The notes under the pieces are model-generated. The model was not told the DNA's origin and made no database searches. It saw only the letters and a list, made by a program, of their open reading frames with translations. The position numbers were made by a program, and so were the translations under genes. DNA of 64,000 nucleotides from Jannaschia seohaensis (GTDB lineage Bacteria; Pseudomonadota; Alphaproteobacteria; Rhodobacterales; Rhodobacteraceae): NCBI RefSeq assembly GCF_900116765.1, contig NZ_UETC01000001.1, positions 620,001 to 684,000 of the forward strand, read 5' to 3'. Within the stretch, counting starts at the first letter, position 1. The number at the start of each line of letters is the position of its first letter. Positions 5,413 to 56,497 of this stretch are shown piece after piece.

Positions 5413-5459
5413 CTTCTTCCCTGCATAAATATCCCGGGGGTCCGGGGGCTGGCCCCCGG
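5413..5459 (-). repeat. Structured intergenic repeat, subfamily A, copy 1
   Basis: On the minus strand: hairpin CCGGGGGC-CA-GCCCCCGG (5442-5459), then the core GGATATTTATGCAGGGAAGAAG (5413-5434, given here as two joined blocks GGATATTTATG and CAGGGAAGAAG). The same core occurs at 13536-13557 and 56476-56497. It lies between the convergent EamA and peroxiredoxin genes and may end transcription from both sides. Confidence 0.75.
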
Positions 5460-5505
5460 TCCCGCCCGCACCGCCAGAGCGGCGATGCGGAGCGGAGGGC
5501 CGGCC

Positions 5506-5994
5506 TTACAGCGTCTTGAGCAGCGTCTCGGCGTCCGAGACCTCCATCACGCCCGGGCTCTCCTCGACGTTGAGCGCCTTGACCGTGCCGTCCTCGACCA
5601 GCATTCCGTAGCGCCGGGAGCGCCCGATCAGGCCGGCGGGCGGTGCGTCGAAATCGAGGCCCATGGCCTTGGTGAAGCTTCCGTCCGCATCGGCCAGCAT
5701 ATGAATGCCTGCCTCGGTGGCGCCGGTCGCCTCGCCCCAGGCCTTCAGGACGAAGGGGTCGTTGACCGAGATGCAAACGATCGCGTCCACGCCCTTCTCC
5801 GCAAGCTGGTCCTTGGCCTGGATATAGCTGGGCACATGCGCCGCCGAGCAGGTGGGCGTGAACGCCCCTGGCACGGCGAAGATGGCGACGGTCTTGCCGG
5901 CCGTCAGCTCCGACAGGCTGACGGTCTCGGGGCCCTCGCCGCCGATGCGGATGAGGTTGGCCTCGGGCAGCTTGTCGCCGGTGGAGATGGTCAT
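5506..5994 (-). CDS. Peroxiredoxin, Prx5/AhpE-like redoxin type
   Basis: 162 aa from ATG 5994. The motif P-G-A-F-T-P-T-C-S (42-50) has the peroxidatic Cys49 in the context typical of the Prx5 group (Type II peroxiredoxins). The length and the TISTGDKLPEANL start match. It reduces H2O2, alkyl hydroperoxides or peroxynitrite in the cytosol using glutaredoxin, glutathione or thioredoxin. It is divergent from the flavoprotein at 6071 with 76 bp between starts, and convergent with the EamA gene across a structured repeat. High confidence. Confidence 0.92.
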   Translation of the reverse strand: MTISTGDKLPEANLIRIGGEGPETVSLSELTAGKTVAIFAVPGAFTPTCSAAHVPSYIQAKDQLAEKGVDAIVCISVNDPFVLKAWGEATGATEAGIHMLADADGSFTKAMGLDFDAPPAGLIGRSRRYGMLVEDGTVKALNVEESPGVMEVSDAETLLKTL

Positions 5995-6070
5995 GTCGCG
6001 TCCCTCGCGTTTGTATTGTCCTGGCGGAGTATTATAGCTGCCCGCGACAGACCGACCAGGGAGCACCGCC

Positions 6071-7270
6071 ATGGATCACATCGCCGTCGTCGGCGCGGGA
6101 CAAGCCGGCGCCAGCGCCGTGGAGACGCTGCGAAAGGAGGGCTTCGCGGGCCGGCTCACCCTCTGGGGCGACGAGCCGCATCTGCCTTATCAGCGTCCGC
6201 CGCTCTCGAAGGCGTATCTGCTGGGCGAGATGGAGCGGGAGCGGCTGTATCTGCGGCCCCGGACCTTCTACGACGAACATGGGGTGGAGCTGCATCTGGG
6301 CGAGCGGGTGACGGCGCTCGACCCGGCCGCGCGGACCCTGACCCATGGGGGCGGGACGGAAGGCTGGGACGCGGCGATCCTGGCCACCGGCTCCGCCGCG
6401 AACACCTTGCCGGAGCGCTGCACCGCGGGCCTGCCCGGCACCCGGGTGATCCGGACCTTGGCCGATATCGACGCGCTCGCCCCCGAGATGGTGCCGGGGC
6501 GGCGGCTGCTGGTGGTCGGCGGCGGCTATATCGGGCTGGAGGCGGCGGCGGTCGCGCGCAAGATGGGCCTGGAGGTCGTTCTGGTGGAGTTGAGCGCCCG
6601 CCTGCTGTCGCGCGTCGCCTGCGAGGAGACGGCCGCCTGGTTCCGCGCGCTGCACCGCGATCACGGCGTGGACCTGCGCGAGGGGGTCGGGCTCGACACG
6701 CTGCTGGGCGGGGGCCGGATCGAGGGCGCGCGGCTGACCGACGGGACCGAGATCGCCGTCGACCTGGTGCTGGCCGGGATCGGCGCCCATGCGGTCACCG
6801 ACTTGGCCGAGGCGGCGGGGCTCACCTGCGCGAACGGCGTCGTGGTCGATGAGATGGGCCGGACCTCGGCGGCGGGTGTCTGGGCGGCGGGCGATTGCGC
6901 CGCCTTCCCGTGGAAGGGCGACCACGTCCGGCTCGAAAGCGTCCCGCACGCGATCGACCATGCCCAGGCCGTGGCCCGCAATGTGCTGGGGGCGGAGGCG
7001 CCCTATGTCGCCAAGCCCTGGTTCTGGTCGGACCAATATGAGGTCAAGCTCCAGATCGCGGGGCTCAATACCGGGTTCGACCGGGTGGTGGTGCGCGAGG
7101 ATGCGGGGCGGTCGCACTGGTATTATGCGGGCGACCGCTTGCTGGCGGTGGACGCGATGAACGACCCGCGCGCCTATATGGTCGGCAAACGCCTGATCGA
7201 AGCCGGCCGGTCGCCCGATCCGGCGGCGGTGGCCGATGGCTCGGTCCCGGTCAAGAACCTGATGGCGTGA
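6071..7270 (+). CDS. FAD-dependent NAD(P)H oxidoreductase (ferredoxin/rubredoxin-reductase type)
   Basis: 399 aa from ATG 6071. FAD-binding GAGQAG (8-13), the family loop P-Y-Q-R-P-P-L-S-K, NAD(P)-binding G-G-G-Y-I-G-L-E-A-A near residue 150, W-A-A-G-D-C-A near 275, L-E-S-V-P-H-A-I-D-H and P-W-F-W-S-D-Q-Y. These are the hallmarks of rhodocoxin/putidaredoxin reductase-type flavoproteins, which pass electrons from NAD(P)H to a small ferredoxin feeding a P450 or dioxygenase. No ferredoxin or oxygenase lies next to it here, so the partner is unknown. rsmD follows 10 bp downstream and is probably co-transcribed. Confidence 0.9.
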   Translation: MDHIAVVGAGQAGASAVETLRKEGFAGRLTLWGDEPHLPYQRPPLSKAYLLGEMERERLYLRPRTFYDEHGVELHLGERVTALDPAARTLTHGGGTEGWDAAILATGSAANTLPERCTAGLPGTRVIRTLADIDALAPEMVPGRRLLVVGGGYIGLEAAAVARKMGLEVVLVELSARLLSRVACEETAAWFRALHRDHGVDLREGVGLDTLLGGGRIEGARLTDGTEIAVDLVLAGIGAHAVTDLAEAAGLTCANGVVVDEMGRTSAAGVWAAGDCAAFPWKGDHVRLESVPHAIDHAQAVARNVLGAEAPYVAKPWFWSDQYEVKLQIAGLNTGFDRVVVREDAGRSHWYYAGDRLLAVDAMNDPRAYMVGKRLIEAGRSPDPAAVADGSVPVKNLMA

Positions 7271-7280
7271 GGCCCAACGT

Positions 7281-12724: not shown

Positions 12725-13489
12725 ATGCTGACCGTCATCTCGCCCGCCAAATCCCTCGATCTCGCTCCGGTGTCCGACCCGGCCACCGCCCCCCGGTTCC
12801 AGGAGGAGACCGCGACGCTGGTCACCCGCGCCCGGCGCCTGACGCTGAAGGACATGCGCGCGCTGATGTCGATCTCGGAGGACCTGGCCCGGCTCAATCG
12901 CGACCGCTACCGCGACTGGGACGACGCCGCCGAAAAACCCGCGATCCGCATGTTCGCGGGGGACACCTATACCGGCCTCGATGCGGCGACCCTGTCCGAG
13001 GACGCGCTGCGCCACGCCCAAGACACGCTCCGCATTCTCTCGGGGCTCTACGGCCTTCTGCGCCCGCTCGACGCGATCAAGCCCTACCGGCTGGAGATGG
13101 GCAGCCGCCTGAACACCCGGCGCGGCAAGGATCTCTACGCCTTCTGGGGACCGCGCCTCGCCGAGGCGCTCAACGCCGACGCAGAGGCGGTTGGCACCGA
13201 CCTGCTGCTCAATTGCGCGAGCCAGGAATATTTCGGCGCCGTGGATCGCAAGGCGCTGAAGCTGCGCGTGATCACGCCGACCTTCCTCGAAGACAAGCCC
13301 GGCGGGCCCAAGATCGTCAGCTTCGCCGCCAAGCGCGCCCGGGGCGCCATGGCCCGCTTCGTGGCCGAGCACCGCCTGACGGCCCCCACCGATCTGCGCG
13401 ACTTCCGCACCGGCGGCTACGAATGGCAGGAGAGCCCCGAGGACGCCCCTGTCTTCCTCCGCCGCGCCGAGACGGACCGCGCGGCCTGA
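12725..13489 (+). CDS. yaaA: Peroxide stress protein YaaA
   Basis: 254 aa from ATG 12725. It begins MLTVISPAKSLD, followed by the family blocks A-I-x-M-F-x-G-D-x-Y-x-G-L, L-S-G-L-Y-G-L-L-R-P-L-D and Y-R-L-E-M-G; these define YaaA (DUF328). In E. coli YaaA lowers intracellular iron during peroxide stress and has a DNA-binding helix-hairpin-helix-like fold. Typical family length. High confidence. Confidence 0.94.
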   Translation: MLTVISPAKSLDLAPVSDPATAPRFQEETATLVTRARRLTLKDMRALMSISEDLARLNRDRYRDWDDAAEKPAIRMFAGDTYTGLDAATLSEDALRHAQDTLRILSGLYGLLRPLDAIKPYRLEMGSRLNTRRGKDLYAFWGPRLAEALNADAEAVGTDLLLNCASQEYFGAVDRKALKLRVITPTFLEDKPGGPKIVSFAAKRARGAMARFVAEHRLTAPTDLRDFRTGGYEWQESPEDAPVFLRRAETDRAA

Positions 13490-13535: not shown

Positions 13536-13557
13536 CTTCTTCCCTGCATAAATATCC
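13536..13557 (-). repeat. Structured intergenic repeat, subfamily A, copy 2 (short)
   Basis: Identical core to the copies at 5413-5434 and 56476-56497, minus-strand orientation, but without the adjoining G/C hairpin. It sits between convergent yaaA and dapE. Possibly a decayed or minimal copy. Confidence 0.65.
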
Positions 13558-13626
13558 CCGCCGGAGGCACCCGCCCTCGGCCCGATGCGCCGCCCGTCCG
13601 GACGACGCACCACCTCGGCCGCAGGC

Positions 13627-13650
13627 GAAAATTCTTAATTAAGAATTTTC
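13627..13650 (-). terminator. 24-bp perfect AT-rich palindrome overlapping the dapE stop
   Basis: GAAAATTCTTAA followed by TTAAGAATTTTC is perfectly self-complementary. It includes the last codons (EENS) and the TAA stop of dapE (13639-13641). In a genome this GC-rich, 24 bp of AT-dominated palindrome stands out. As RNA it forms a hairpin ending in U residues, so it can act as a terminator; as DNA it could be a protein-binding site. Confidence 0.55.
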
Positions 13651-14793
13651 TTCAGCGGCGAACCAGCCGCGCAGGATCCGGGCGTAGATCGCCTTGAGCT
13701 GTCCGATCTGCTCCACGCGCACGCGCTCGTCCACCGCGTGCATCCGGTGGCCGACAAGGCCGAACTCAACCACCGGGCAATGGCTTTTGACGAAGCGGGC
13801 GTCCGAGGTCCCGCCCGAGGTCGACAGCACCGGTCTGCGCCCGGTCTCCGCCGCGACGGCCTCCGCGACGAGCTCCGATAGGGGGCCGGGCGGGGTGAGG
13901 AAGCTCTCGCCGGAGATTTTGACCTCCATGCCGATCTCGATCCCCGTCGCCTCGGAGACCCGCGCCGCCTCCCGTCGGAGCCAGGCGGTCAGCGTGGCGC
14001 CGCTATGGCTGTCGTTGAAGCGGATGTTGACGGTGGCGCGGGCCTCGGCCGGGATCACGTTGGTGGCTTGGTTGCCGGTGTCCATGGTGACGACGGCGAG
14101 GGTGGAGGGATCGAAATGGGCGGTGCCCCGGTCAAGCTCCGTCTCGGCGAGATCGGCCATCAGCCGGGCCATGGCGGGCAACGGGTTCTTAGCGCGATGC
14201 GGATAGGCCGCATGGCCCTGCTGGCCCCGGAAGGTGAACCAGGCGTTCATAGAACCACGCCGCCCGATCTTCATCATGTCGCCCATCTCTTCGGGGCAGG
14301 TCGGCTCGCCCACGAGGCAGACATCCATCCGCTCGCCCTCGGCATCCATCCAGTCGAGCAGCGCGCGAGTGCCGTCGCGGGACGGCCCCTCCTCGTCGCC
14401 GGTGATGGCCAGGATGACGGCGCCGTCGGGCGGGGTCTCGATCACGAAATCCACGGCGGCGGCGGCGAAGGCAGCCACGCCCGACTTCATGTCGGTGGCG
14501 CCGCGGCCATAGAGCCAGCCCTCGGCGATCTCCCCACCGAACGGATCGTGGGTCCAGGCAGCGGCGTCGCCCACCGGGACCACATCCGTATGGCCGTTGA
14601 AGCCGAAACTGGGCGCGCCCTTCCGCCCCCAGCGGGCAAAGAGATTGGGCACGCCGCCCCGGTCCACCCGCGTGCAGGAGAACCCCGCCGCCGACAGCAT
14701 CTCCTCCAGCAGGACCAGCGCGCCGCCTTCCTCGGGCGTGACCGAGGGGCAGCGGACGAGGTTCTGGGTCAGGGCGACGGGATCGGTGGTCAT
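13639..14793 (-). CDS. dapE: Succinyl-diaminopimelate desuccinylase DapE
   Basis: 384 aa from ATG 14793. M20-family zinc ligands: G-H-T-D-V-V (His68), G-R-G-A-T-D-M-K (Asp101), T-G-D-E-E-G (Glu134/135); near the end [10 protein letters not shown] and H-M-H-A-V-D-E-R. It removes succinate from N-succinyl-LL-diaminopimelate in lysine and peptidoglycan precursor synthesis. Its ATG overlaps the stop of the upstream 109-aa gene by 4 nt, so translation is probably coupled. The last codons form half of a perfect palindrome. High confidence. Confidence 0.95.
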
Positions 14794-15272: not shown

Positions 15273-15790
15273 GAGGTCTGGCTCAGCGACCGGCGATGGG
15301 CGGCGGGCGCCGCATCCGTCGGAGAACCGGTCCGGGGCACGACGGGTGGAGGACCGTCCCGTGATCCCCTGGACGGTGCATGTGCTTCGGTCGGGGGCGG
15401 CTCGCGGATTGCGTGGCCGCTTATGACCCGCCCAGGACGATCTCCGCCCGCTGGCGCCAATGGTCCCGGTGCGGCATCTGGGAGGGCTGTCCGAAGCGGT
15501 CCGCGAGGTCGCCCCCGCCGAGGCAGCCGCCCTCGTCTGCCGTTCCGTGACTGTCCAGCGCTCGGCCACTGGGGCAAAGCAGGGAGGCGGGCGGGCGGCG
15601 AAGACCCACCCGATTGCGGACGGGGCGGGACGCCTGTTCGTCCTCACGCCCGGCCAGTTCGGGGACAGTTGCGCGGCATGGCCTCTGATGTCGGCGCTGC
15701 CGTCCAGGCGGGGTCTGCTGGGGGATGCCGTCTCCGATGCCGAGCGGTCGCGCCGCATCGCCAACGCTCGGGACACGGTGGCTGCGTTTG
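15273..15790 (+). pseudogene. Decayed IS5-family transposase
   Basis: Three reading frames in succession carry recognisable pieces of an IS5/IS427-type transposase. (1) from 15273: E-V-W-L-S-D-R-R-W. (2) around 15407-15480, shifted +2: D-C-V-A-A-Y-D-P-P-R-T-I-S-A-R-W-R-Q-W, the RW.D.P..YGP..T.Y.RW..W region. (3) from 15547: V-T-V-Q-R-S-A-T-G-A-K-Q-G, T-H-P-I-A-D-G-A-G-R-L-F, L-T-P-G-Q-F-G-D, and L-P-S-R-R-G-L-L-G-D-A, matching the H.R.A.GAKGG / THA..D..GR.....TPGQ..D blocks. At least two frameshifts, an in-frame stop and substitutions of catalytic residues show it is dead. The C-terminal third is missing. Terminal inverted repeats were not found. Confidence 0.8.
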
Positions 15791-15815
15791 CAGTCGGAGC
15801 CTGGCGCGTCCGCGC

Positions 15816-16064
15816 TCAGTTGCGCACCGCCCGCACGACGAAGATCAGGATGCAGGCGCCGATGATGCCCACGACCATCTGTGCCAGCCACGTCCCCGTG
15901 GCGAAGATGCCCACCCAACGCAACAGCGCGTTGGCGACGAAAGCGCCGACGATGCCCAGGATGATGTTGAGGAAGAGGCCGGTATCGGCCTTCATGATCA
16001 TGCTCGCGATCCATCCCGCAAGGCCGCCGACGATGAGGGAGGCGAAAAACCCGAGTCCGGCCAT
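15816..16064 (-). CDS. GlsB/YeaQ/YmgE family stress-response membrane protein
   Basis: 82 aa from ATG 16064. Three hydrophobic segments with the pattern G-L-A-G-W-I-A-S-x-I-M and N-I-I-L-G-I-V-G-A-F-V-A-N, diagnostic for the GlsB/YeaQ/YmgE (transglycosylase-associated) family. These are small inner-membrane proteins induced by envelope, osmotic or acid stress; the mechanism is unknown. The IS5 remnant lies just past its stop and may have landed at its 3' side. High family confidence. Confidence 0.92.
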   Translation of the reverse strand: MAGLGFFASLIVGGLAGWIASMIMKADTGLFLNIILGIVGAFVANALLRWVGIFATGTWLAQMVVGIIGACILIFVVRAVRN

Positions 16065-16164
16065 GGCGTCACTCCTGTTATGCGTGCGACAGAAACGCGC
16101 GCTGCTGCGGCGCGGTTCCGGTCCCGGCCTCGACAGAACACCGGATGCGCCCCATTTTCCAGTC

Positions 16165-16461
16165 ATGCAGGGAAACCAGCGCACCAGGCTCGGTCTGTCG
16201 AAGGCGCAGCGGGACAACATGGCCGCGTATGACGCGCTGCCTGAACCGCTGCGCGTCTGGCTTGCGCAGGCGCGGCTGCCCTGGTCCCCGGCCTCGGCCA
16301 AGCGGGCCTGGCGCAAGGCGCTCTGGCGGAATTTCGGGCGCACTAAGGCCGCGCTGGCCGAGATGGACCGGCTGGAGGAAGAGCGCCTCGCCCAGGACGC
16401 GCTGACGCAGCAGCGGGCGGCGGAGGGGCTTAGGCCGCCGGTGGATCGTTCGGGACGGTAG
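16165..16461 (+). CDS. DUF6525-like conserved small protein
   Basis: 98 aa from ATG 16165; no clear Shine-Dalgarno, and the frame is open upstream. Core: N-M-A-A-Y-D-A-L-P-E-P-L-R-V-W-L-A-Q-A-x-L-P-W-S-P-x-S-A-K-R-A-W, followed by a charged helix ending E-E-E-R-L-A-Q-D-A. From memory this is the DUF6525 family widespread in Rhodobacterales; the name is less certain than the pattern. Function unknown. Divergent from the GlsB-like gene and convergent with the HlyD-family gene. Confidence 0.65.
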   Translation: MQGNQRTRLGLSKAQRDNMAAYDALPEPLRVWLAQARLPWSPASAKRAWRKALWRNFGRTKAALAEMDRLEEERLAQDALTQQRAAEGLRPPVDRSGR

Positions 16462-16463
16462 AG

Positions 16464-16507
16464 CTGGGGCTCTGCCCCAGACCCCGGAGTATTTCCGGCC
16501 AGAAGAA
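16464..16507 (+). repeat. Structured intergenic repeat, subfamily B, copy 1
   Basis: Hairpin CTGGGGC-TCT-GCCCCAG (16464-16480), then CCGGA-GTATT-TCCGG (16484-16498), then CCAGAAGAA. The same plan is seen at 24131-24198 and, diverged, at 45653-45716. It lies between convergent genes. Confidence 0.75.
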
Positions 16508-16554: not shown

Positions 16555-17934
16555 TCACTCCCGGAAGGCGCGGTTGAAATAGTCGGTCAGCGGCTTGACG
16601 AGATAGGCCAGCGGGGTCCGGTCCTGGGTGCGGATATAGGCTTCGACCGGCATGCCGGGCAGCAGGACCAGTGACTCGTCCAGGCGGTCGAGTTCACCGT
16701 CGTTGGGCAGCACCTCGGCCTGGTAATAGGGCGCGCCGGTGACTTCGTCTGTGAAGGAGTCGGGCGAGACCCGGACGATGGAGCCGAAGAGTTCGGGCGT
16801 CGTCTTCATGTCGAAGCTGGACAGGCGCAGGGTCACGTCCTGGCCCGGATAGACCTGATCGATATGGATCGGGTCGACCTGGGTCTGGATCACCAGCGGC
16901 CGGTCCTGGGGCACGAGATAGAGCACCGGCTCGGCCGGGCGGATCACGGAGCGGGGCGTGAAGACCGTGAGGCCATAGACCACGCCCGAGACCGGCGCCT
17001 TGATCTCCATCCGGCTCAGCCGCTCCTGGACGGAGCGGTATTGCTCGGCCAGCTCGGTCTCGCGGAATTGCAGGTCGCGCAGGAGGCTGATCGCCTCCTC
17101 GCGCAGGCGGTTCTCCAGCTTGAGCACCTCAAGGTCGATCTCCGTGGCCCGGCCTTCCAGCTCGGCCACCGCCGCCTCGAACTCGCCGACCTGACCCAAG
17201 AGGCGGGCTTCCTCGCGGCGGAGCGCCAGAACCCGGGGCGCTTGGGCCAGCCCGCGATCGAGCAGGCTCTGCTGGGCGTCGAGCTCTTCGCGCAGGAACT
17301 CGAGCTGGAGCGCGAGCGCCTCGGACTGCGCGGCGATGCCGTCGACCTGGTTGCCGATCTGCGCTTTGCGGCGGATCAATTGCTCCGTTTCGCGCTCGAA
17401 CAGCTCGCGCCGTGCCGCAAACAGCCGCTCCTGTCCCGAGACCATGTCCGCGACTTCGGGATCGGTCTGGGTGGCCGCGGCCAGGTCGTCGGGAAAGGTC
17501 AGCGTGTCCAGCCCGTCGCGTTCCGCTTCCAGCCGGGCGGAGCGGGCGGCCAGCTCGAAGAGCTGGTTGCGCAGGATCTGCGCCTCCGAGTTCTGGAGCG
17601 TGCGGTCCAGGGTCAGCAGGGTCTGCCCGGCTTCGACCACGTCCCCCTCGCGCACCGAGATCTCGGCCACCACCCCGCCATCGGGATGCTGCACGACCTG
17701 CCGGTTGCTCTCGACGGCGATCTGGCCCGACGAGATGATCGCGCCCGAGATATTCGCCGTCACCGCCCAATAGCCGAACCCCCCGAGCAGCACGGCGAGA
17801 CCCAGGATGCCGATGATGAGCTGCCGCCGCGCGGTCCAGGTCGCGGCGGCCTGTTGCACGGCGGGGACGGGCTTGTTCGCCTGGTTGGCGGGAAGCTTGG
17901 CGGTGTCCGCTTTGACGGGGAGCTGCTTGTTCAC
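16555..17934 (-). CDS. HlyD-family type I secretion periplasmic adaptor (PrtE-like)
   Basis: 459 aa from GTG 17934, which overlaps the stop of the upstream ABC gene by 4 nt (GTGA). One N-terminal membrane helix (about 38-58), then the biotinyl-lipoyl half G-x-I-A-V-E-S-N-R-Q-V-V-Q-H-P-D-G-G-V-V, a long coiled-coil hairpin (about 110-300), and a beta-barrel with K-A-P-V-S-G-V-V. This layout is the membrane-fusion protein of type I secretion systems, bridging the inner-membrane ABC exporter to TolC. No tolC or substrate gene is adjacent. High confidence in class. Confidence 0.93.
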   Translation of the reverse strand: MNKQLPVKADTAKLPANQANKPVPAVQQAAATWTARRQLIIGILGLAVLLGGFGYWAVTANISGAIISSGQIAVESNRQVVQHPDGGVVAEISVREGDVVEAGQTLLTLDRTLQNSEAQILRNQLFELAARSARLEAERDGLDTLTFPDDLAAATQTDPEVADMVSGQERLFAARRELFERETEQLIRRKAQIGNQVDGIAAQSEALALQLEFLREELDAQQSLLDRGLAQAPRVLALRREEARLLGQVGEFEAAVAELEGRATEIDLEVLKLENRLREEAISLLRDLQFRETELAEQYRSVQERLSRMEIKAPVSGVVYGLTVFTPRSVIRPAEPVLYLVPQDRPLVIQTQVDPIHIDQVYPGQDVTLRLSSFDMKTTPELFGSIVRVSPDSFTDEVTGAPYYQAEVLPNDGELDRLDESLVLLPGMPVEAYIRTQDRTPLAYLVKPLTDYFNRAFRE

Positions 17935-22703: not shown

Positions 22704-24038
<1,335 letters not shown>

Positions 24039-24071
24039 CTCTCCCTCCCTCGACCCGAGGAGAATGACGAC

Positions 24072-24105
24072 CCCCCGGGCGCGACGGCGCCCGGGGGTTT
24101 TCGTT
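24072..24105 (+). terminator. Rho-independent terminator after amtB
   Basis: 11-bp perfect stem CCCCCGGGCGC (24072-24082) / GCGCCCGGGGG (24087-24097), loop GACG, followed by TTTTCGTT. It ends the glnK-amtB transcript. Confidence 0.88.
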
Positions 24106-24130
24106 CGGGCATTGGGAACGGGAGGAGAAC

Positions 24131-24198
24131 GGGGAGGGGGGCTCTGCCCCCCGTCGGCCCATGGCCGACTCCCCCCGGAGTATTTCCGGCCAGAAGAA
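24131..24198 (+). repeat. Structured intergenic repeat, subfamily B, copy 2
   Basis: Outer pairing GGGGAG (24131-24136) with CTCCCC (24169-24174). Inside are hairpin 1 GGGGGGC-TCT-GCCCCCC (24136-24152) and hairpin 2 GTCGGCC-CAT-GGCCGAC (24153-24169). Then CCGGA-GTATT-TCCGG (24175-24189) and CCAGAAGAA. It lies between convergent amtB and dddP. The rest of this 302-bp gap (to 24340) shows nothing gene-like beyond the amtB terminator. Confidence 0.78.
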
Positions 24199-24340
24199 GG
24201 CGGCCCGGGAAAAGATCGGACGCTCGGCCAAAACCTTTCGCCTTTGACCTGCGCCAGCCGCGAAAGGCAAAGCGCACGCAACGGCCCAGCGGCGCACCGC
24301 GTTTCGAGAAGGCGGAGACTCAGGTCTTGCGCGAAGCGCT

Positions 24341-25678
24341 TTAGAGCAGTCTCGGATCGAACGGATAACGGCTGAGGTTCTCGGGGCCGGTCTCGGTCAC
24401 CAGCACCTGATCCTCGAGCTTGATCGAAAAGTCGCCCCCGTCCTCGGCCGTCAGCACCTCGACACAGAGGACCATTCCCGGCTCCAGTACGGCGCCGCCG
24501 GCATAGCCCGGATCGGCTTGGTCGGGATAGGCGATCATGGGCCACTCGTCGCATAGCCCCACCCCATGGAACGCGCAGCCATACTTAAGGGCCTGGAACT
24601 CGGGCCGCAGCGTGTGAAGCATACGTGGCAGGTCATCGAGCGGCGTGCCGGCTATCAGGAGCGTCTCGTTATATCGGATATGGTCCAGCGAGTGCCGCAT
24701 GGCGTCGACGATATCGGGCCGCGCGGGACCGTCGCCGATCCACCATGTCCGGCTCATGTCGCAGCAGAAGCCATACGGCCCCACGAGGTCGGTGTCGAAA
24801 GCCAGGATCTCGTTCTCGGAGATCTCGCGCGGGCCGCATTCCTGGAACCACGGGTTGGTGCGCGGACCGGAGGCCAACAGCCGCGTCTCGATCCATTCGC
24901 CGCCACGGCGGATGTTGGAGGCGTGAAGCTCCGCCCAGACGTCGTTCTCGGTGACGCCGCCGCGGGGGATCTCGGTGCGGGCGAAGGTCTCCATTTCCTG
25001 CATCGCGACCTCGCAGGTATGGATGGCGCAGCGCATGGCCGCGATCTCGTCGGGGCTTTTCACGGACCGTGCCCGCTCCGTTAGGGCTTCGCCTGGCAGG
25101 ACGGCGATCCCGGAGGCTTCCAGCGCGCGCAGCCCGTGGATCGTGGGCTTGTCGCAGGCCAGACGCAGGAGCCCGCCGCCATGCTCCCGCAGCAGGTCGC
25201 GGACCTCACCGGCAAAGATGCGGGCGCCGCGGTCGATGCCTTCGCCACGGGTGAAATAAAACAGGTCCGCGCCCGCCCGGCGCTCGGCCACCAGGGGATT
25301 GTACTCCGACAGGAAGGTCGCGATCCGGTAGTCCCAGAGGACCATGTAGCCATCGGCGCAGACCAGCGCCGCGCGGAACGGGTTGTGGGCGTTCCAGAGC
25401 TGCATGTTGGTCGTGTCGGTCGCATAGCGGATGTTGAGCGGGTCGAAGACCAGAAGCCCACCGAGGCCACGCGCCACCACCTGATCCCGCAGCCGGTCTA
25501 GGCGATAGCGGCGCATGGCCGCGAGGTCCGGAAGGGCGAGGCCCCGTGCCTCCCACTCGGCGAAGGCCAGCGGTGTGGGGCCGATCTCCACACGGTCGGC
25601 GTCGTTGGGTGTGCCGTCGCCCAGATGCGTGCCGCGGCTGGGGTCGATCTTTCGGGGGAACGGGGCGTGATCCTTCAT
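24341..25678 (-). CDS. dddP: DMSP lyase DddP (M24 metallopeptidase fold)
   Basis: 445 aa from ATG 25678, the known DddP length. It carries the DddP-specific N-terminal R-K-I-D-P-S-R-G-x-x-L-G-D-G-T-P-N-D, then M-Q-L-W-N-A-H-N-P-F-R and W-I-E-T-R-L-L-x-S-G-P-R-T-N-P-W. The metal ligands are in place: Asp295, Asp297 (F-D-T-D-L), Asp307 (C-D-M-S-R-T-W-W), His371 (H-G-V-G-L-C-D-E-W-P), Glu407 and Glu422, one-to-one with those reported for Roseobacter DddP. It cleaves dimethylsulfoniopropionate to dimethyl sulfide and acrylate. No DMSP transporter or acrylate genes are adjacent. High confidence; points to a marine, algae-associated life. Confidence 0.93.
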   Translation of the reverse strand: MKDHAPFPRKIDPSRGTHLGDGTPNDADRVEIGPTPLAFAEWEARGLALPDLAAMRRYRLDRLRDQVVARGLGGLLVFDPLNIRYATDTTNMQLWNAHNPFRAALVCADGYMVLWDYRIATFLSEYNPLVAERRAGADLFYFTRGEGIDRGARIFAGEVRDLLREHGGGLLRLACDKPTIHGLRALEASGIAVLPGEALTERARSVKSPDEIAAMRCAIHTCEVAMQEMETFARTEIPRGGVTENDVWAELHASNIRRGGEWIETRLLASGPRTNPWFQECGPREISENEILAFDTDLVGPYGFCCDMSRTWWIGDGPARPDIVDAMRHSLDHIRYNETLLIAGTPLDDLPRMLHTLRPEFQALKYGCAFHGVGLCDEWPMIAYPDQADPGYAGGAVLEPGMVLCVEVLTAEDGGDFSIKLEDQVLVTETGPENLSRYPFDPRLL

Positions 25679-39362: not shown

Positions 39363-39648
39363 GGTTGGCGGCATCCGCGCGCGGCCCGGCGAACCGGACC
39401 GGCCCGACCTTGCGAGGGGGCGAGGGCGGCGTGCGGCTGACCCAGGAGAGGGGTGACCGGGCAAGGATCTCCGGGGCGCTGCCTGCCAAGACGCGGAGCG
39501 TCGGGGGCGCGCCGCGATGCATTCCCGGCGCGGTCTCGGGGCGCGGTGCCGCCATCACGGCCCGGGGCAGGCTGGCGACCCACGAAGCCCAGATCTCGGT
39601 CGGCGGGCGCAAGAGCCGGGAGGCCGGCGTGGCGCGCTGCGGGGCCGC

Positions 39649-39990
39649 GTGAGGGGCTTGGTTGTCCTTTTCCTGACCGTGCTGACGGGCTGCGTCGCGG
39701 CCCCGCCGCCGGGGTCGCCTGCGCCCTCCGAGCCCGCGCTTTCGCTGGTGCCTTATGAGGGCGGGCTTGTGGTCGTCGGGTCGGGCGGGCGCGAGATCGG
39801 GTTCGGGCGGGACCGGCCGGGGGCGCTGGCCTCGGTCGCGCGGGTCGAAGGCGTCGCGCCGCGGCCCATCCCCTGCGCGGCGCTGGGGCGCGACGGGTTC
39901 GTCACCCGCGAGGGCGTGACGTTGATCTTTACGGAGCATAGCTTCGTGGGCTGGGCGCAGGACGGGCGGCGCGCCGGGCGGACGTGCTGA
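39649..39990 (+). CDS. Small predicted lipoprotein
   Basis: 113 aa from GTG 39649. V-R-G-L-V-V-L-F-L-T-V-L-T-G-C is a short lipoprotein signal with lipobox L-T-G-C. The mature part begins with a Pro/Ala/Ser linker, then a small domain with two more Cys (P-I-P-C-A-A-L-G and the C-terminal Cys). No family is recognised. The 286 bp between regA and this start holds no supported gene. Confidence 0.6.
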   Translation: MRGLVVLFLTVLTGCVAAPPPGSPAPSEPALSLVPYEGGLVVVGSGGREIGFGRDRPGALASVARVEGVAPRPIPCAALGRDGFVTREGVTLIFTEHSFVGWAQDGRRAGRTC

Positions 39991-40058
39991 GGCGAGGCGG
40001 ACGGTGGGGCTGGGCGGTCTGACCCGCGACCGATGGCAGGGGCGCTCAGGGAGGCGTG

Positions 40059-41845: not shown

Positions 41846-43921
41846 GTGGGAACACGTCTGGGGGTCGATATCGGCGGCACGTTTACGGATGTCGTGCTGG
41901 AGCGGGACGGCACCCGCCACTCGACCAAGGTTCTGACCACCTATGCCGCCCCCGAGGACGCGATCGTCGAAGGGATGCGCCGGGTCTGCGGCGCGGCGGG
42001 CATCGCGCCCGCGGAGATCGACCAGATCATCCATGGCACGACGCTGGCCACCAATGCGCTGATCGAGCGGCGCGGCGCCAAGACGGCGCTGATCACGACC
42101 GAGGGCTTCCGCGACGTGATCGAGATGCGCACCGAGTCGCGCTTCGAGCAATATGACCTCAACCTCGCCCTGCCGGAGCCGCTGCTGCCGCGTCAGGCGC
42201 GCTTCACGGTTCCCGAACGGGTCGACGCGACCGGCGCCGTGCTGGTCCCGCTGGAGCGCGCCGCGGTGGAGGCCGTGGCCGACCGGATCGCCGCGGCGGG
42301 CTATGACAGCGTCGCGGTGGGACTGCTGCATAGCTACCTCGCCCCGGCCCATGAGCGGCTGATCCGTGACGTCCTGGCCGAGCGCCTGCCCGAGGTCTCG
42401 GTCTCGATCTCCTCCGAGGTCAGCCCTCAGATGCGGGAATACGAGCGGTTCAACACCACCGTGGCGAATGCCTATATCAAGCCGCTCATGGCCTCCTATC
42501 TGGGCCGGCTGGAGGCGCGGCTGGCGGCGGAAGGCGTGGGTTGCCGCATCTTTCTGATGCATTCGGGCGGAGGGATCCTGTCGATCAAGGACGCCTCCGA
42601 CTTCCCGGTCCGCCTGGTCGAGTCGGGGCCGGCCGGGGGCGCCGTCTTCGCCGCGCATATCGCGGCGCGCTATGGGCTGGACCGGGTGCTGAGTTTCGAC
42701 ATGGGCGGGACGACGGCAAAGATCTGCCTCATCAAGGACGGCACGCCCAAGACCTCGCGGGTCTTCGAGGTCGCGCGCAGCTACCGGTTCAAGAAGGGGT
42801 CGGGCATGCCGATCTCGATCCCGGTGATCGACATGGTGGAGATCGGGGCGGGGGGCGGCTCGCTCGCCCATGTGGACGCGCTGCGCCAGATCCGGGTGGG
42901 CCCCGAGAGCGCGGGGTCGGAGCCGGGCCCCGCCTGTTACGGGCGCGGGGGCGCGCGGCCCGCCGTGACCGACGCGGACCTCATGCTGGGTAAGCTGGAT
43001 CCGGCTGCCTTCGCGGGCGGCTCCATCACGCTCGACCCGGGGGCCGCCTCTTCCGCCCTGTCGGACGTCATCGGCGCGGGCCTCGGGATGGATGCCGAGG
43101 AGGCCGCCCATGGCGTGGCCGAGGTGGTGGACGAGAACATGGCCAACGCCGCCCGCGTCCATGCCGTCGAGAACGGGGAGGACTTATCGGGCTACACCAT
43201 GATCGCCTTCGGTGGCGCCGCCCCTCTGCATGCGGGGCGGCTTTGCGAAAAGCTGGGGATCGCGCGCTGTCTCGTGCCGCCCGGGGCGGGGGTGGGCAGC
43301 GCCATCGGCTTCCTGCGCGCGCCCTTCAGCTTCGAGGCCAACCGCTCGGTCTACATGCGGCTGGGAGACTTCGACGCGGATGCGATCCGCGTGCTGCTGG
43401 AGGAGTTGCGCGCGGAGGCGACCGGCTTCGTGCGGGAATGCGACGCGGAGGCGGAGATCTTGGCGGAGGTGCGCGTCTATATGCGCTATGTCGGCCAGGG
43501 CTGGGAGATCCCGATCCCGCTGACGGCGGCGGAGGCGGCGGCGCCCGACGCGGCCACCTTCCAGGCGCGATTCGAGGAGGAATATACCCGGCTCTTCGGC
43601 CGTCCGGTGGCGGGGCTGGATGTGGAGATCACCGTCTGGTCGGTGAACGCGACCACGCCGCCCGCGCCCATCGCGCCGGTCCAGCCGGCCGCCCCCGGCC
43701 CTGACGCGCCGCGGAGCGGCGACCGCACTCTGTTCGACCCGGCCCTGGGCGCGTTCCAGGACGCCGCCGTGGTGGCGCGCGACGCCCTGACCGAAGGCGC
43801 CCGCGTCCCGGGCCCCGCCGCCATCGTCGAGGCCGAGACCACCATCATCGTTCCCGCCAGCCGCGCCGCGCTCCGCCAGCCGGACGGCTGCATCGACCTG
43901 ACCGTGAAGGAGACCCCATGA
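41846..43921 (+). CDS. hyuA: Hydantoinase/oxoprolinase family subunit A (HyuA)
   Basis: 691 aa from GTG 41846 with AAGGAG 9 nt upstream. ATP-binding actin-like motifs G-V-D-I-G-G-T-F-T-D-V-V (6-17), G-T-T-L-A-T-N-A-L-I-E-R and F-D-M-G-G-T-T-A-K-I-C-L-I; V-G-P-E-S-A-G-S-E-P-G-P-A-C-Y-G-R-G-G. The family includes N-methylhydantoinase, 5-oxoprolinase and acetone/acetophenone carboxylase subunits; ATP-dependent ring opening of a hydantoin-like or oxoproline substrate is most likely. Substrate not determined. Overlaps hyuB by 4 nt (ATGA). Confidence 0.9.
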   Translation: MGTRLGVDIGGTFTDVVLERDGTRHSTKVLTTYAAPEDAIVEGMRRVCGAAGIAPAEIDQIIHGTTLATNALIERRGAKTALITTEGFRDVIEMRTESRFEQYDLNLALPEPLLPRQARFTVPERVDATGAVLVPLERAAVEAVADRIAAAGYDSVAVGLLHSYLAPAHERLIRDVLAERLPEVSVSISSEVSPQMREYERFNTTVANAYIKPLMASYLGRLEARLAAEGVGCRIFLMHSGGGILSIKDASDFPVRLVESGPAGGAVFAAHIAARYGLDRVLSFDMGGTTAKICLIKDGTPKTSRVFEVARSYRFKKGSGMPISIPVIDMVEIGAGGGSLAHVDALRQIRVGPESAGSEPGPACYGRGGARPAVTDADLMLGKLDPAAFAGGSITLDPGAASSALSDVIGAGLGMDAEEAAHGVAEVVDENMANAARVHAVENGEDLSGYTMIAFGGAAPLHAGRLCEKLGIARCLVPPGAGVGSAIGFLRAPFSFEANRSVYMRLGDFDADAIRVLLEELRAEATGFVRECDAEAEILAEVRVYMRYVGQGWEIPIPLTAAEAAAPDAATFQARFEEEYTRLFGRPVAGLDVEITVWSVNATTPPAPIAPVQPAAPGPDAPRSGDRTLFDPALGAFQDAAVVARDALTEGARVPGPAAIVEAETTIIVPASRAALRQPDGCIDLTVKETP

Positions 43922-45612
43922 GCCAGGAGCCCAGCGCCGTCGCCTATCAGGTGATGTGGACCCGCCTGATCTCGGTCGTGGAGGAGCAGGCCCAGGCCCT
44001 GGTGCGGACCGCCTTTTCGACGAGCGTGCGGGAGGCGGGGGATCTCTCGGCCGGGGTCTATGACGACCGGGGGCGGATGCTGGCCCAAGCGGTTACCGGA
44101 ACCCCGGGCCATGTCAACGCCATGGCCGATGCCGTCGCCCATTTCATCCGCCGCATCGGGCGGGAGACGATGGCGCCGGGCGATGTCTACATCACCAACG
44201 ACCCCTGGGAGGGGACGGGCCACCTGCACGACTTCACCATGGTGACGCCCGCGTTCCATGGCGGGCGGCTGGTCGGCTTCTTCGCCTGCACGGCGCATGT
44301 GGTCGATATCGGCGGGCGCGGCTTTGGCGCGGACGGGGCCAGCGTCTACGAGGAGGGGCTTTACATCCCGATCATGCGCTTCGCCGACCGGGGCCGGGTG
44401 GACGAGACGCTGATCCGCATCGTCCGCGGCAATGTGCGCGAGCCCGATCAGCTGGTGGGCGACCTCTATGCCCTGGCCACCTGCAACGAGATAGGCCATC
44501 GCCGCCTGACCGAGATGATGGAGGAGTTCGGGCTGGACGATCTGAGCGGGATCGCGGGCTTCATCCTGGAGAACTCCCGCCGCGCCACCCTGGAGCGGAT
44601 CGCCGCGCTTCCGCGCGAAAGCGCCGTGGGCGAGATGGTCGTCGACGGGTTCGACACGCCGATCACGCTGCGCGCCCGGGTGACGGTGGAGCAGGACCGG
44701 ATCGTCACCGATTTCGAGGGCACCTCGGGGATCGACGCCAAGGGCATCAACTGCCCATTGGTCTATACCAAGGCCTATGCGTGCTATGCGCTGAAGGTGG
44801 CCATCGCGCCCGAGATCCCGAACAACCACGCCTCGCTCGCCCCGTTCGAGGTGACGGCGCCCGAGGACACGATCGTCAACGCCCGCCACCCGGCGCCGGT
44901 CGCGCTGCGGCATATCGTCGGGCATTTCGTGCCCGACACGGTGTTCGCGGCCTTTGACCAGATCGTGCCCGGCGTTGTCCCGGCCGAGGGCGCGGGCTGT
45001 CTGTGCAACTTCCAGGTCTCGCTCAGGCCCACGGGTCCCGGCGGGCGGCGGGCGGAGGTGCTGACCTTCAACTCCGGCGGCTCCGGCGCGCGGCCCGCGC
45101 GGGACGGGCTGAACGCGACGGCTTTCCCGTCGGGCGTGATGACGATGCCGGTGGAGGCGACCGAGCATGCCGGTCCCGTCGTGATCTGGCGCAAGGAGCT
45201 GCGCCCGGATTCGGGCGGCGCGGGCCGGACGCGCGGAGGCTTGGGGCAATATATGGTCGTTGGCGCGCGCGAGGGCCACGTGTTCGACATTCAGGCGATG
45301 CTCGACCGCGTCGACCATCCCGCGCGCGGGCGGCGCGGCGGGCAGGCGGGCGGGGCGACCTCGATCGCCCGCTCCGACGGGGTGGCGATGCGCGGCAAGG
45401 GCAAGCAGGCCGTCCCCGAGGGCGCCCGGGTGGAGATGGCCTTCCCCGGGGGGGGCGGCTATGGCCCCGCCTCCGACCGCGACCCCGCCCTGCTGCGCCG
45501 CGACCTTGCGCGCGGTTACATCACGGCGGAGGCCGCCGCGCGCGATTATGGGATGACGGCGGAAGAGATCGCGGAGGTCGAGGCGGCGGTGGCCCGGGGC
45601 GAGGACGTCTGA
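43918..45612 (+). CDS. hyuB: Hydantoinase/oxoprolinase family subunit B (HyuB)
   Basis: 564 aa from ATG 43918. Conserved T-A-F-S-T-S-V-R-E-A-G-D-L-S, T-G-T-P-G-H-V-N, I-T-N-D-P-W-E-G-T-G-H-L-H-D, and G-G-G-G-Y-G near the C-terminus. Partner of the HyuA subunit, with which its start overlaps. The two together form a cytosolic ATP-dependent amidohydrolase. A structured repeat follows. Confidence 0.9.
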   Translation: MSQEPSAVAYQVMWTRLISVVEEQAQALVRTAFSTSVREAGDLSAGVYDDRGRMLAQAVTGTPGHVNAMADAVAHFIRRIGRETMAPGDVYITNDPWEGTGHLHDFTMVTPAFHGGRLVGFFACTAHVVDIGGRGFGADGASVYEEGLYIPIMRFADRGRVDETLIRIVRGNVREPDQLVGDLYALATCNEIGHRRLTEMMEEFGLDDLSGIAGFILENSRRATLERIAALPRESAVGEMVVDGFDTPITLRARVTVEQDRIVTDFEGTSGIDAKGINCPLVYTKAYACYALKVAIAPEIPNNHASLAPFEVTAPEDTIVNARHPAPVALRHIVGHFVPDTVFAAFDQIVPGVVPAEGAGCLCNFQVSLRPTGPGGRRAEVLTFNSGGSGARPARDGLNATAFPSGVMTMPVEATEHAGPVVIWRKELRPDSGGAGRTRGGLGQYMVVGAREGHVFDIQAMLDRVDHPARGRRGGQAGGATSIARSDGVAMRGKGKQAVPEGARVEMAFPGGGGYGPASDRDPALLRRDLARGYITAEAAARDYGMTAEEIAEVEAAVARGEDV

Positions 45613-45652: not shown

Positions 45653-45716
45653 GGGGGAGGGGGCTCTGCCCCCGTCCGGCAAGCCGGACTCCCCCGAGGT
45701 ATTTCCGGCAAGATGA
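45653..45716 (+). repeat. Structured intergenic repeat, subfamily B, copy 3 (diverged)
   Basis: Hairpin 1 GGGGGC-TCT-GCCCCC (45659-45673) and hairpin 2 GTCCGGC-AA-GCCGGAC (45674-45689), enclosed by GGGGGAG (45653-45659) and CTCCCCC (45689-45695). Then GTATTTCCGG followed by CAAGATGAG instead of CCAGAAGAA. Hairpin 2 has a different sequence from that at 24153 but the same pairing. Between convergent hyuB and DUF1285. Confidence 0.72.
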
Positions 45717-45750: not shown

Positions 45751-46308
45751 CTATTCCAGCGCCGCAGCCTCGATCATCGGGAAGAAGGCGCCCCCGGAGC
45801 GGACGCCGAAAACGTCTCCCTCGGTCTCGCCGATCTCCACCAGCCGGTAGAAGGATTTGCGGTCGATCAGCGCCTCCAGCCCACGGCGGACCTCGATATA
45901 GGGGGACGGCTCGCCATCCGGTCCCAGTTCCACCCGGATCGGGTGGTCGGGGCCAGCGGTGACGAGATCGCCGACATTGGTGGAAAAGGTGATGTCCCCG
46001 TCCGCGACTTCGAAATCGACGGCCACGAAAGGCGCGTCCTCGACCTGCAGGCCCAGCTTCTCGACCGGCGTCACGAGGAAGTAGCGGTCCCCCTCGCGCT
46101 TGAGCACGGAGGCGAACAGCCGCACCAGCCCGAGCCGTCCGATCGGCGTGCCCTCGTGGATCCAGGTGCCGTCGCGCTTGATGACGATATCGATCTCGCC
46201 GCAATAGGGCGGATCCCACAGATGTACGGGCGGTGGGCCCTTGCCGCCGCTTTTGGCGGCCGCGATCAGGGATGCTGTCGAGCCGTTCACATTCACTTGT
46301 TCGGCCAT
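45751..46308 (-). CDS. DUF1285 domain-containing protein
   Basis: 185 aa from ATG 46308. P-V-H-L-W-D-P-P-Y-C-G-E-I-D-I-V-I-K-R-D and G-T-P-I-G-R-L-G-L-V-R-L-F-A-S-V-L are the DUF1285 hallmarks, followed by Y-F-L-V-T-P-V-E-K-L-G. Cytosolic, function unknown. Divergent from moxR, an arrangement I recall as common in alphaproteobacteria. Good confidence. Confidence 0.9.
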   Translation of the reverse strand: MAEQVNVNGSTASLIAAAKSGGKGPPPVHLWDPPYCGEIDIVIKRDGTWIHEGTPIGRLGLVRLFASVLKREGDRYFLVTPVEKLGLQVEDAPFVAVDFEVADGDITFSTNVGDLVTAGPDHPIRVELGPDGEPSPYIEVRRGLEALIDRKSFYRLVEIGETEGDVFGVRSGGAFFPMIEAAALE

Positions 46309-54223: not shown

Positions 54224-54248
54224 GGCTCGGCCTTCGGGGAAGCACGAA

Positions 54249-54382: not shown

Positions 54383-54958
54383 ATGCTGGGACGGATCGTC
54401 GAGGCGCTCGCACGGTTGATGGCGGTGCTGGGGGGGCTGGTGCTGACCGGCCTGATCCTGATGACATGCCTGTCGATCCTGGGGCGGTCGGCGAGCGGCG
54501 TGCTGAACGCCGACTGGATGCCGGAGGGGCTCGGCGCGGCCTTGCTGGGGCTGGGGATCGGGCCGATCCGCGGAGATTTCGAACTGGTCGAGGCGGGCAT
54601 GGCCTTTGTCATCTTCGCTTTCCTGCCGATCACCCAGTTGAAGGGCGGCCATGCCTCGGTCGATATTTTCACCAATATGCTGGGGCTTCGGGCCAACCGC
54701 GTGCTGACCTTGCTCTGGGCGCTGCTTTTCGCGGCCGCGATGGTGCTGATCGCGTGGCAGCTTTGGCAGGGCACCCAGGACAAGATGCGCAACGGGGAGA
54801 CGTCGTTCCTGATCCAATTCCCGATCTGGTGGGCCTATGCGGCCTCGCTGGTGGGGGCGGTGGCGGCGGCGGCGACCTCCGTCTACATCGCGCTGGTGCG
54901 GCTGGCGGAGTTGGCCACCGGCGACGCGATCCTGACCGGTGAGGGGGCGGAGCATTGA
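54383..54958 (+). CDS. TRAP transporter small permease (DctQ)
   Basis: 191 aa from ATG 54383. Four hydrophobic segments with M-T-C-L-S-I-L-G-R-S and L-P-I-T-Q-L-K-G-G-H-A-S-V-D-I-F, the standard DctQ topology. Its stop overlaps the dctM start (TTGA). Membrane partner of DctM. High class confidence. Confidence 0.92.
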   Translation: MLGRIVEALARLMAVLGGLVLTGLILMTCLSILGRSASGVLNADWMPEGLGAALLGLGIGPIRGDFELVEAGMAFVIFAFLPITQLKGGHASVDIFTNMLGLRANRVLTLLWALLFAAAMVLIAWQLWQGTQDKMRNGETSFLIQFPIWWAYAASLVGAVAAAATSVYIALVRLAELATGDAILTGEGAEH

Positions 54959-56442
54959 GCGATCTGGCCATCGGGCTCGTCTCCTTCCCGGCGCTGCTGG
55001 TCCTGATCTTTCTGCGCGTGCCCATCGGGCTGGCGATGTTCACGACCGGCTTCGTCGGGCTCTGGCTGGTGACCGACGGGACGCTGGTGGGGCTGAGCCG
55101 GCTCAAGAACGAGACCTATTCGACCTTTTCCTCCTACTCGCTATCCATCGTGCCGATGTTCCTTCTGATGGGGCATTGCGCGACGCTGGGGGGCATGAGC
55201 CAGGCGCTGTTCCGGGCGTCCGAAGGGTTTCTGGGGCACCGCAAGGGCGGCGTGGCCATGGCCGCGATCGGCGCCTGCGCGGGGTTCGGGGCGATCTGCG
55301 GCTCGTCGCTGGCCACGGCGGCCACGATGGGGCGCGTCGCCCTGCCGGAGCTGCGCCGCTATGGCTACGATGGCGGGTTCTCGACGGCGACGCTGGCCGC
55401 CGGGGGGACGCTGGGCATCCTGATCCCGCCCTCGGTCGTCCTGGTGATCTATGCGATCCTGACCGAGCAGAACATCGCCAAGCTGTTCCTGGCGGCCTTC
55501 ATTCCGGGCGTGCTGGCGGCGCTGGGCTATATCATAGCCGTGCGCATCTATGTCTGGCGGAACCCCGATCTGGCCGGCACGCGGGAGGCGATCCCGATGG
55601 GGCAGCGGTTCCGGCAACTCGGGGCGGTCTGGCCGGTGCTGGTCGTGTTCCTGGCCGTGGTCGGTGGGATCTATGGCGGCATCTTCACGCCCACCGAGGC
55701 GGCGGCGGTGGGGGCGCTGGGCACGGGACTGATCGCGCTGGTGAATGGCGGGCTGACCGGAAAGACCCTGATCGAGAGCTTTCTGGTCACCGCGAAATCC
55801 TCGGCGATGATCTTCTTCATCGTGCTGGGCGCGGCCTTCTATAACGGGTTTCTGGCGCTGACCCAGGTGCCGCAGGAGATGGCGGACTGGGTCGTGACCC
55901 AAGGCTTCGCGCCGATCACGGTGCTGATCGTGATCCTGGCCTTCTATCTGATCTTCGGCTGCCTGATGGATTCGCTGTCGATGATCCTCCTGACGATCCC
56001 GATCTTCTTTCCGGTGATCTCGGCGCTCGATTTCGGGCTGGTCGACCTGATCGCGATGCAGCACGAGGCGGCGCTGGCCGCTTTGGCCTCGGGCGCGGAG
56101 ATCGCGGCGGAGGTGCGCGCGGAGGTCGAGGCGCTGATCGCCGCCGGGCTGGAGATCCCACGGGAGTTGCAGCGCGAGATCGACATCCGGGTGACTCAGG
56201 GGATGGCGGACCGCATCGCGGCGGAGCGCACGGCGATCTGGTTCGGCATTCTGGTGCTGATCGTGGTCGAGGTCGGGCTGATCACGCCGCCGGTGGGGAT
56301 GAACCTGTTCGTGCTGAACGCGATGGACAGGGCGACGCCGATCCTGCGGACCTATCGGGCGGTGGTCTATTTCGTGGGGACCGATCTGGTGCGCGTGGCG
56401 ATCCTGGTGGCATTCCCTGCGATTACGTTGTTCCTGATCTGA
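54955..56442 (+). CDS. TRAP transporter large permease (DctM) with a ~65-aa inserted segment
   Basis: 495 aa from TTG 54955 overlapping the dctQ stop. About 12 membrane segments; R-V-P-I-G-L-A-M, F-G-A-I-C-G-S-S-L-A-T-A-A-T-M-G, G-T-L-G-I-L-I-P-P-S, F-T-P-T-E-A-A-A-V-G and V-G-L-I-T-P-P-V-G-M-N-L-F are all present. Usual DctM proteins are about 425-440 aa. Here a polar, Ala/Glu-rich, helical stretch (about 56041-56235, D-L-I-A-M-Q-H-E-A-A to A-D-R-I-A-A-E-R-T-A) interrupts the normally direct join between the F-F-P-V-I helix and I-W-F-G-I. The transporter should be functional, with an extra soluble loop. Confidence 0.93.
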   Translation: MSDLAIGLVSFPALLVLIFLRVPIGLAMFTTGFVGLWLVTDGTLVGLSRLKNETYSTFSSYSLSIVPMFLLMGHCATLGGMSQALFRASEGFLGHRKGGVAMAAIGACAGFGAICGSSLATAATMGRVALPELRRYGYDGGFSTATLAAGGTLGILIPPSVVLVIYAILTEQNIAKLFLAAFIPGVLAALGYIIAVRIYVWRNPDLAGTREAIPMGQRFRQLGAVWPVLVVFLAVVGGIYGGIFTPTEAAAVGALGTGLIALVNGGLTGKTLIESFLVTAKSSAMIFFIVLGAAFYNGFLALTQVPQEMADWVVTQGFAPITVLIVILAFYLIFGCLMDSLSMILLTIPIFFPVISALDFGLVDLIAMQHEAALAALASGAEIAAEVRAEVEALIAAGLEIPRELQREIDIRVTQGMADRIAAERTAIWFGILVLIVVEVGLITPPVGMNLFVLNAMDRATPILRTYRAVVYFVGTDLVRVAILVAFPAITLFLI

Positions 56443-56447
56443 GGGCG

Positions 56448-56497
56448 CCGGGGGGCCAGCCCCCCGGACCCCCCGGGATATTTATGCAGGGAAGAAG
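56448..56497 (+). repeat. Structured intergenic repeat, subfamily A, copy 3
   Basis: Hairpin CCGGGGGGC-CA-GCCCCCCGG (56448-56467), then the core from GGATATTTATG to CAGGGAAGAAG (56476-56497), plus-strand orientation. The only copy between co-directional genes. Its purine tail GAAGAAGGAGGGG forms the ribosome-binding site of the next gene. Confidence 0.78.

Follow-up and report, generated by a model that had tools for sequence, protein, structure and literature searches.

A hairpin, core and tail repeat of the Rhodobacter family, probably a dispersed REP-like DNA element

A short structured repeat, consisting of a G+C hairpin followed by the core RRTATTT, three variable bases (N3) and an 11-base tail, is present six times in the 64,000-nucleotide stretch of Jannaschia seohaensis DNA under study (the window; G000:C16:620001-684000, G000 being the organism's own genome, 4.84 Mb in 37 contigs). 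It is probably a dispersed DNA element of the Rhodobacter family in the GTDB sense, resembling the repetitive extragenic palindromic (REP) sequences. That a putative, lineage-specific factor acts on it in trans seems to us an even proposition. More tentatively, and at somewhat less than even chance, we propose a repeat system that spans the family and lacks a REP transposase. Its tail would be altered from one genome to the next at orthologous sites that stay fixed, including those in coding sequence, in step with the factor, and its sites would decay jointly where that factor is lost.

With up to one mismatch allowed, the joint pattern has 180 matches in the own genome and its reversed control has 1; because the genome holds so many, the six window copies are a real but small sample. 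Among genomes of the order, 114 out of 149 gave at least one match, the number ranging from 0 to more than 100 (control, 0 to 2 per strand); all 149 fall in the window's own GTDB family, and single matches among them may be due to chance. Among 113 genomes of other alphaproteobacterial families (115 were drawn from the class), the pattern matches one to three times in 28 and the control once in 11, and several of these out-of-family matches are one recurring string that resembles coding sequence. The element is near background outside the Rhodobacter family. The first-pass annotation of the window had mentioned similar strings in other Rhodobacterales, and such strings are indeed present in genomes, named loci and plasmids. 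The named Rhodobacterales loci and plasmids carry the same cores with other tails, e.g. CCAAGATGAAG. Tails are near-uniform inside one genome and differ from genome to genome, as exemplified by the private tails of the congeners G080 (AAGCAGAGAAGG and CCGAGAAGAAAG) and G156 (CCAAGAAGAAG). Copies are much more numerous in G000 than in its congeners. One window copy used as a query gave no match in phage records.

The anatomy of the element was established on 66 copies collected from the own genome, 46 with an A tail (GGAGTATTT-N3-GCCAGAAGAA) and 20 with a B tail (GGGATATTT-N3-CAGGGAAGAAG). Core and tail are near-invariant in these copies, partly because the search pattern demands both; the invariant portion is GGRRTATTT plus the tail, with no GTAG or CGTC end tag. 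The N3 bases are YYG in 35 of the 46 A copies and mixed in B copies. Five kinds of hairpin precede the core, namely a single GGGGC/GCCCC hairpin, a two-hairpin form, GCGAGGGG/CCCCTCGC, GCCTCCGGC and GGGGG-TTTCACA-CCCCC, and each of them is found with either tail. Covariation was tallied by script over 115 copies from all the genomes sampled, as MAFFT misaligned hairpins of unequal length. Beyond the G-run, the first and second outward stem positions form Watson-Crick pairs in 78 and 90 copies (shuffle maxima 64 and 62), each with three pair types; the third is paired in 38 (shuffle maximum 36), and the fourth shows no pairing excess (49, shuffle mean 54.2). As for the second hairpin, its arms average 3.19 pairs over 54 candidates, in 20 of which the arms do not exceed one pair (shuffle maximum 1.98). 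Thus the claim that stem bases change while pairing is kept, first made on window copies and seen there again, extends to the larger set, and selection for structure on the stems is supported. The window copies have no match to any Rfam family, whether the threshold is the gathering score or an E value of up to 1.

The window copies are as follows.

5413..5459, minus strand: B-tail copy with a single CCGGGGGC/GCCCCCGG hairpin, in the gap between an EamA transporter gene (4519-5358, plus) and a redoxin gene (5506-5994, minus)
13536..13581, minus strand: B-tail copy with a GCCTCCGGCGGGG-type hairpin, in the gap between yaaA (12725-13489, plus) and dapE (13639-14793, minus)
16464..16507, plus strand: A-tail copy with a CTGGGGC/GCCCCAG hairpin, in the gap between a DUF6525 gene (15460-16461, plus) and an hlyD-like gene (16555-17934, minus)
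24131..24198, plus strand: A-tail copy with two hairpins and an outer closing stem, in the gap between amt (22704-24038, plus) and dddP (24341-25678, minus)
45653..45716, plus strand: diverged A-like copy with two hairpins and an outer closing stem, in the gap between a hydantoinase B gene (43918-45612, plus) and a DUF1285 gene (45751-46308, minus)
56448..56497, plus strand: B-tail copy in sense orientation, in the codirectional gap between a TRAP permease gene (54955-56442, plus) and a threonine dehydratase gene (56508-57476, plus)

All six copies reported by the first-pass annotation are present where it had placed them, and its two subfamilies correspond to the A and B tails, with three window matches each (shuffle means 0.04 and 0.00). 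The extent that it gave for the 13536 copy, to 13557, has to be amended, as this copy is not devoid of a hairpin: a GCCTCCGGCGGGG stretch lies ahead of the core, and the predicted hairpin extends to about 13581. The shared plan of core and tail stands, except that the 45653 copy has diverged (GAGGTATTT, tail GCAAGATGA). The predicted folds of the six copies, in order of position, have z values of -0.93, 0.76, -2.20, -3.71, -1.92 and -0.59 relative to shuffles, the single-hairpin copies folding barely better than shuffled sequences. The strands of the flanking genes agree with Pfam or NCBIfam matches.

Gene context was analysed over the whole of C16 and C17:1-200000 (1.19 Mb), with genes called by a simple Markov caller of our own. 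This sample contains 50 copies, 3 of which lie outside any gap. Among gaps of at least 60 bp, a copy is present in 12 out of 75 where the flanking genes converge, in 28 out of 319 where they run in the same direction and in 5 out of 133 where they diverge (Fisher P 0.086 for convergent versus codirectional, 0.074 for codirectional versus divergent); of the 61 convergent gaps longer than 100 bp, 9 have one. In the window, five of the six copies do lie between convergent genes, that at 56448 being in a codirectional gap. The mostly convergent placement proposed on that basis, and the enrichment it led one to look for, is thus mostly peculiar to the window and weak beyond it. The statement that every convergent window gap longer than 100 bp has a copy is not borne out by our gene calls, as there is none in 39363-40058 or in 60952-61588; the 1996-2857 gap also lacks one, although the caller probably missed a gene there. 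The second of these gaps harbours a tRNA gene (61024-61096). No gene recurrently flanked by copies was seen in the few places of the own genome that were looked at.

In codirectional gaps the element has no preferred orientation overall. The C16 and C17 sample has 13 sense and 16 antisense copies, and the other sets 34 and 29, respectively (own genome 4 and 7, G156 2 and 1, other congeners 12 and 7, named loci 8 and 11, plasmids 8 and 3; the genes of the named high-GC loci were called with the own-genome model), which gives a balanced total of 47 sense and 45 antisense. All own sequence gathered, which was partly chosen for containing copies and overlaps the C16 and C17 set, yields 21 sense and 31 antisense. 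In a check of the strand calls, 19 of 20 proteins beside antisense copies and 10 of 10 beside sense copies have a Pfam match on the called strand. Copies occur within operons in both orientations.

Copies are also found inside coding sequence, with 3 of 97 own copies sitting within called genes. That of BchB is in frame in a variable linker, where it is translated as GGPAPQTPRDISAGKKE, and that of BchN forms a C-terminal extension past the aligned end of the protein; in Sulfitobacter S190 the bchN-bchB junction likewise holds a copy, in antisense orientation. The presence of bchN and bchB suggests that the own genome probably belongs to a photosynthetic lineage. The third copy is antisense within the coding sequence of XdhA and fills its interdomain linker. 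As the linker of the Rhodobacter capsulatus-type XdhA chain is of about equal length, a fresh insertion cannot be deduced there. Among 20 congeners, the antisense RRTATTT pattern is present in the XdhA linker of seven (G000, G159, G163, G157, G153, G158 and G160), with the proviso that this pattern takes any tail and that single cases may be chance. The tails at this site vary: GACCAGAAGAAG-like in G000, GCAGGATGAGG in G157 and G153, CCAAGAAAGG in G160, GACCCGTGATG in G159 and GACCAGTGATG in G163. G000 and G157 have the hairpin in common, with compensatory changes (GAGGGGG/CCCCCTC versus GAGAGGG/CCCTCTC), and in G065 the hairpin is retained and the core has decayed. A third, rarer tail, ACCCGTGATGG or ACCAGTGATGG, follows the same RRTATTT core in several congeners, with no obvious G+C hairpin. 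The corresponding loci are listed here.

G000:C16:116973-119785 (L036): own bchN/bchB locus, with copies in both genes
G000:C17:177138: third-tail site
G000:C17:421393: third-tail site
XdhA linkers of G159 and G163 (L358, L361): third-tail sites

The inheritance of sites was followed in related genomes. Of 20 congeners compared at the dapE region, G000 and G149 have a copy, G157 has two arranged tail to tail, and G156 and G162 have relics; the pattern detects no copy in the other 15. Over 4.1 kb of this region the identity between G156 and G162 is 88.7%, and their whole genomes have 24 and 7 matches, respectively, with at most one mismatch. Loci were available for 23 of the 24 G156 matches; after two facing partners had been left out, the remaining 21 were all mapped to G162, where a relic is kept at 18. 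The mean number of mismatches to the 19-base consensus is 0.22 in G156 and 3.9 in G162, and the identity of the G162 sites to those of G156 amounts to 0.76 for the core, 0.82 for the tail, 0.65 for N3 and 0.74 for 12 flanking bases. The shared sites are older than the split between the two genomes and look unconstrained in G162. At a greater distance, 24 G000 sites were sought in G163 and G157 (about 78% identity), and 17 gave an orthologous locus; for 6 of these, inspection by eye revealed a convincing copy, or a convincing core, no more than 450 bp away. One of the six, C16:794524, has the element at the same position, on the same strand and with the same hairpin type in G000, G163 and G157, each with its local tail.

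Close pairs add a further regularity. Of 19 pairs at most 250 bp apart in all gathered sequence, 17 are tail-to-tail, one is tandem and one, in L137, is head-to-head. Some combine different hairpins, or an A tail with a B tail. Most copies are singlets.

As the best explanation we propose a sequence-specific factor, which is most likely a protein that binds or processes DNA. It would encounter the hairpin together with the bipartite RRTATTT-N3-tail site and either hold the sites under selection or copy and homogenise them. Its specificity might drift by lineage, the tails drifting along; where the factor is lost or changed, as we propose for G162, the sites would drift at about the neutral rate. 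A protein-binding site is also the option that survives best among the functions suggested in the first-pass annotation. Several points weigh against this reading. The factor itself is only inferred, and binding, movement and homogenisation are all putative. The G156 sites were picked for near-perfection, which biases the site-by-site contrast with G162; the whole-genome counts of 24 and 7, free of that choice, provide the fair comparison. The tail-to-tail arrangement of close pairs is also compatible with transcription insulation. The YYG bases of A copies could pair with the upstream CCGG, and do so in the RNA folds predicted for two of the window copies, which hints at RNA. Lastly, 22 plasmid regions read by their annotation are sense-biased, with 13 sense matches at 11 distinct loci between codirectional genes and 1 antisense match (two-sided binomial on 11 loci versus 1, about 0.006), in addition to 6 convergent matches at 5 loci and 2 without an annotated upstream neighbour.

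The plasmid bias agrees with an RNA element, i.e., an intercistronic or 3' hairpin combined with a UAUUU site of endonuclease type, through which mRNA would be processed and its stability set. Sense plasmid copies lie between codirectional, functionally linked genes (nrdE-nrdF, gap-fba, hypD-hypE, bchX-bchY, hmgA-fahA and rfbB-rfbD), the stems covary, and GUAUUU fits the preference of RNase E. Nevertheless, antisense copies are equally common overall, own copies in antisense orientation lie between HisZ-like and HisG, Aminotran_3 and OTCace, and molybdopterin oxidoreductase and Fer4 genes, the XdhA copy is antisense within coding sequence, and the asymmetric tail would have no role in antisense copies. 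We therefore regard this explanation as improbable in general; given the plasmid sample, some copies may have an RNA role. A terminator or bidirectional insulator, in which the hairpin and TATTT, or tail-to-tail pairs, would stop transcription from one or both sides, appears the least probable of the alternatives. The convergent window copies, the mostly tail-to-tail close pairs and the paucity of copies in divergent gaps agree with it, and a terminator scan of the window, which found 10 and 6 sites versus shuffle means of 7.9 and 4.6, flags two of the six copies, on the strength of 5-pair stems. However, copies lie within operons in both orientations and within genes, their codirectional orientation is balanced, and the conserved tail past the T-rich end is left without an explanation. 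Canonical terminators are no rarer beside copies: they are found at 1 of 13 codirectional gene ends that have a sense copy, at 1 of 15 that have an antisense one and at 27 of 291 that have none, and at convergent ends the figures are 2 of 12, 2 of 12 and 14 of 126. As their frequency is no different, we rejected the idea that the element replaces canonical terminators. The bidirectional terminator or RNA-stabilising 3' end suggested in the first-pass annotation finds no support as a general rule. The copy downstream of amt comes after a canonical terminator-like hairpin followed by TTTT (24072-24097), so that the end of amt seems to have a terminator of its own. This gene codes for a marine-type ammonium transporter (TIGR03644) and is convergent to a gene matching the model of the dimethylsulfoniopropionate lyase DddP (22704-25678).

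A selfish or neutral miniature mobile element, which would have spread in recent bursts from a few masters and then drifted without host function, is unlikely, if less so than the two preceding explanations. It could account for a copy number in G000 far above that of its congeners, for the 11 of 17 G000 sites without a convincing copy within 450 bp in G163 or G157, and for in-gene copies reminiscent of palindromic elements in Rickettsia genes. Yet 18 of 21 G156 sites are common to G162, the tail at shared sites is the local one, and each tail occurs on all five hairpin types, which is unexpected from a burst of few masters; the one copy compared with phage records has no match, and no mobilising gene was found. 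In particular, a gene for the REP-associated tyrosine transposase (RAYT, Y1_Tnp) is absent from the own genome and present in only 2 of 15 copy-rich genomes, and we rejected this transposase as the mobiliser.

The element that we favour as REP-like has much in common with REPs, bacterial interspersed mosaic elements and the REP doublets called REPINs: it is short, palindromic, high-copy and mostly extragenic, with a lineage-specific sequence, both orientations and inverted pairs. It nevertheless departs from REPs in two of the features by which they are recognised, the RAYT gene and the end tag. REPs carry a GTAG or CGTC tag at one end, according to PMC3733652, whereas the element ends in RRTATTT-N3-tail. 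Unlike in REPs and REPINs, several hairpin types have one tail in common, and most copies are single, which differs from REPINs as presented in PMC3116915. The Rickettsia palindromic elements are likewise alphaproteobacterial palindromic repeats able to sit in frame inside genes; their sequence and hairpin plan probably differ, and only 3 of 97 own copies of our element are in genes. Intrinsic terminators also have a G+C hairpin and then a few T, but the element is found in both orientations and in operons and genes, and has a conserved tail past the T-rich stretch. Structured, covarying hairpins are shared with Rfam RNA families, none of which matches. Among titles on REPs or repeats in Rhodobacter, Rhodobacterales or Rhodobacteraceae, none describes the element, most subscription journals being outside the coverage, and full-text searches with core strings gave no title on Rhodobacterales among the matches listed. 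None of six genus names looked for occurs in PMC3733652; a genus-name look-up in PMC12306157 returned one passage, on another alphaproteobacterium. For Rhodobacter sphaeroides, no motif was found upstream of 3' ends dependent on polynucleotide phosphorylase, as stated in PMC7866481.

As copies occur in operons and also in genes, xdhA and bchB among them, caution is warranted before these hairpins are annotated as terminators in Rhodobacterales genomes. A sense copy in the gap-fba interval of a Calvin-cycle cluster in two Cereibacter species (L291, L295) would be convenient for an RNA test. If the tails do track a trans-acting factor, the family would provide a set of naturally occurring recognition dialects, in which G156, with intact sites, could be set against its matched relative G162, where they drift. 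The question of what spreads and maintains REP-like DNA could then be tested in a group that does without the usual transposase.

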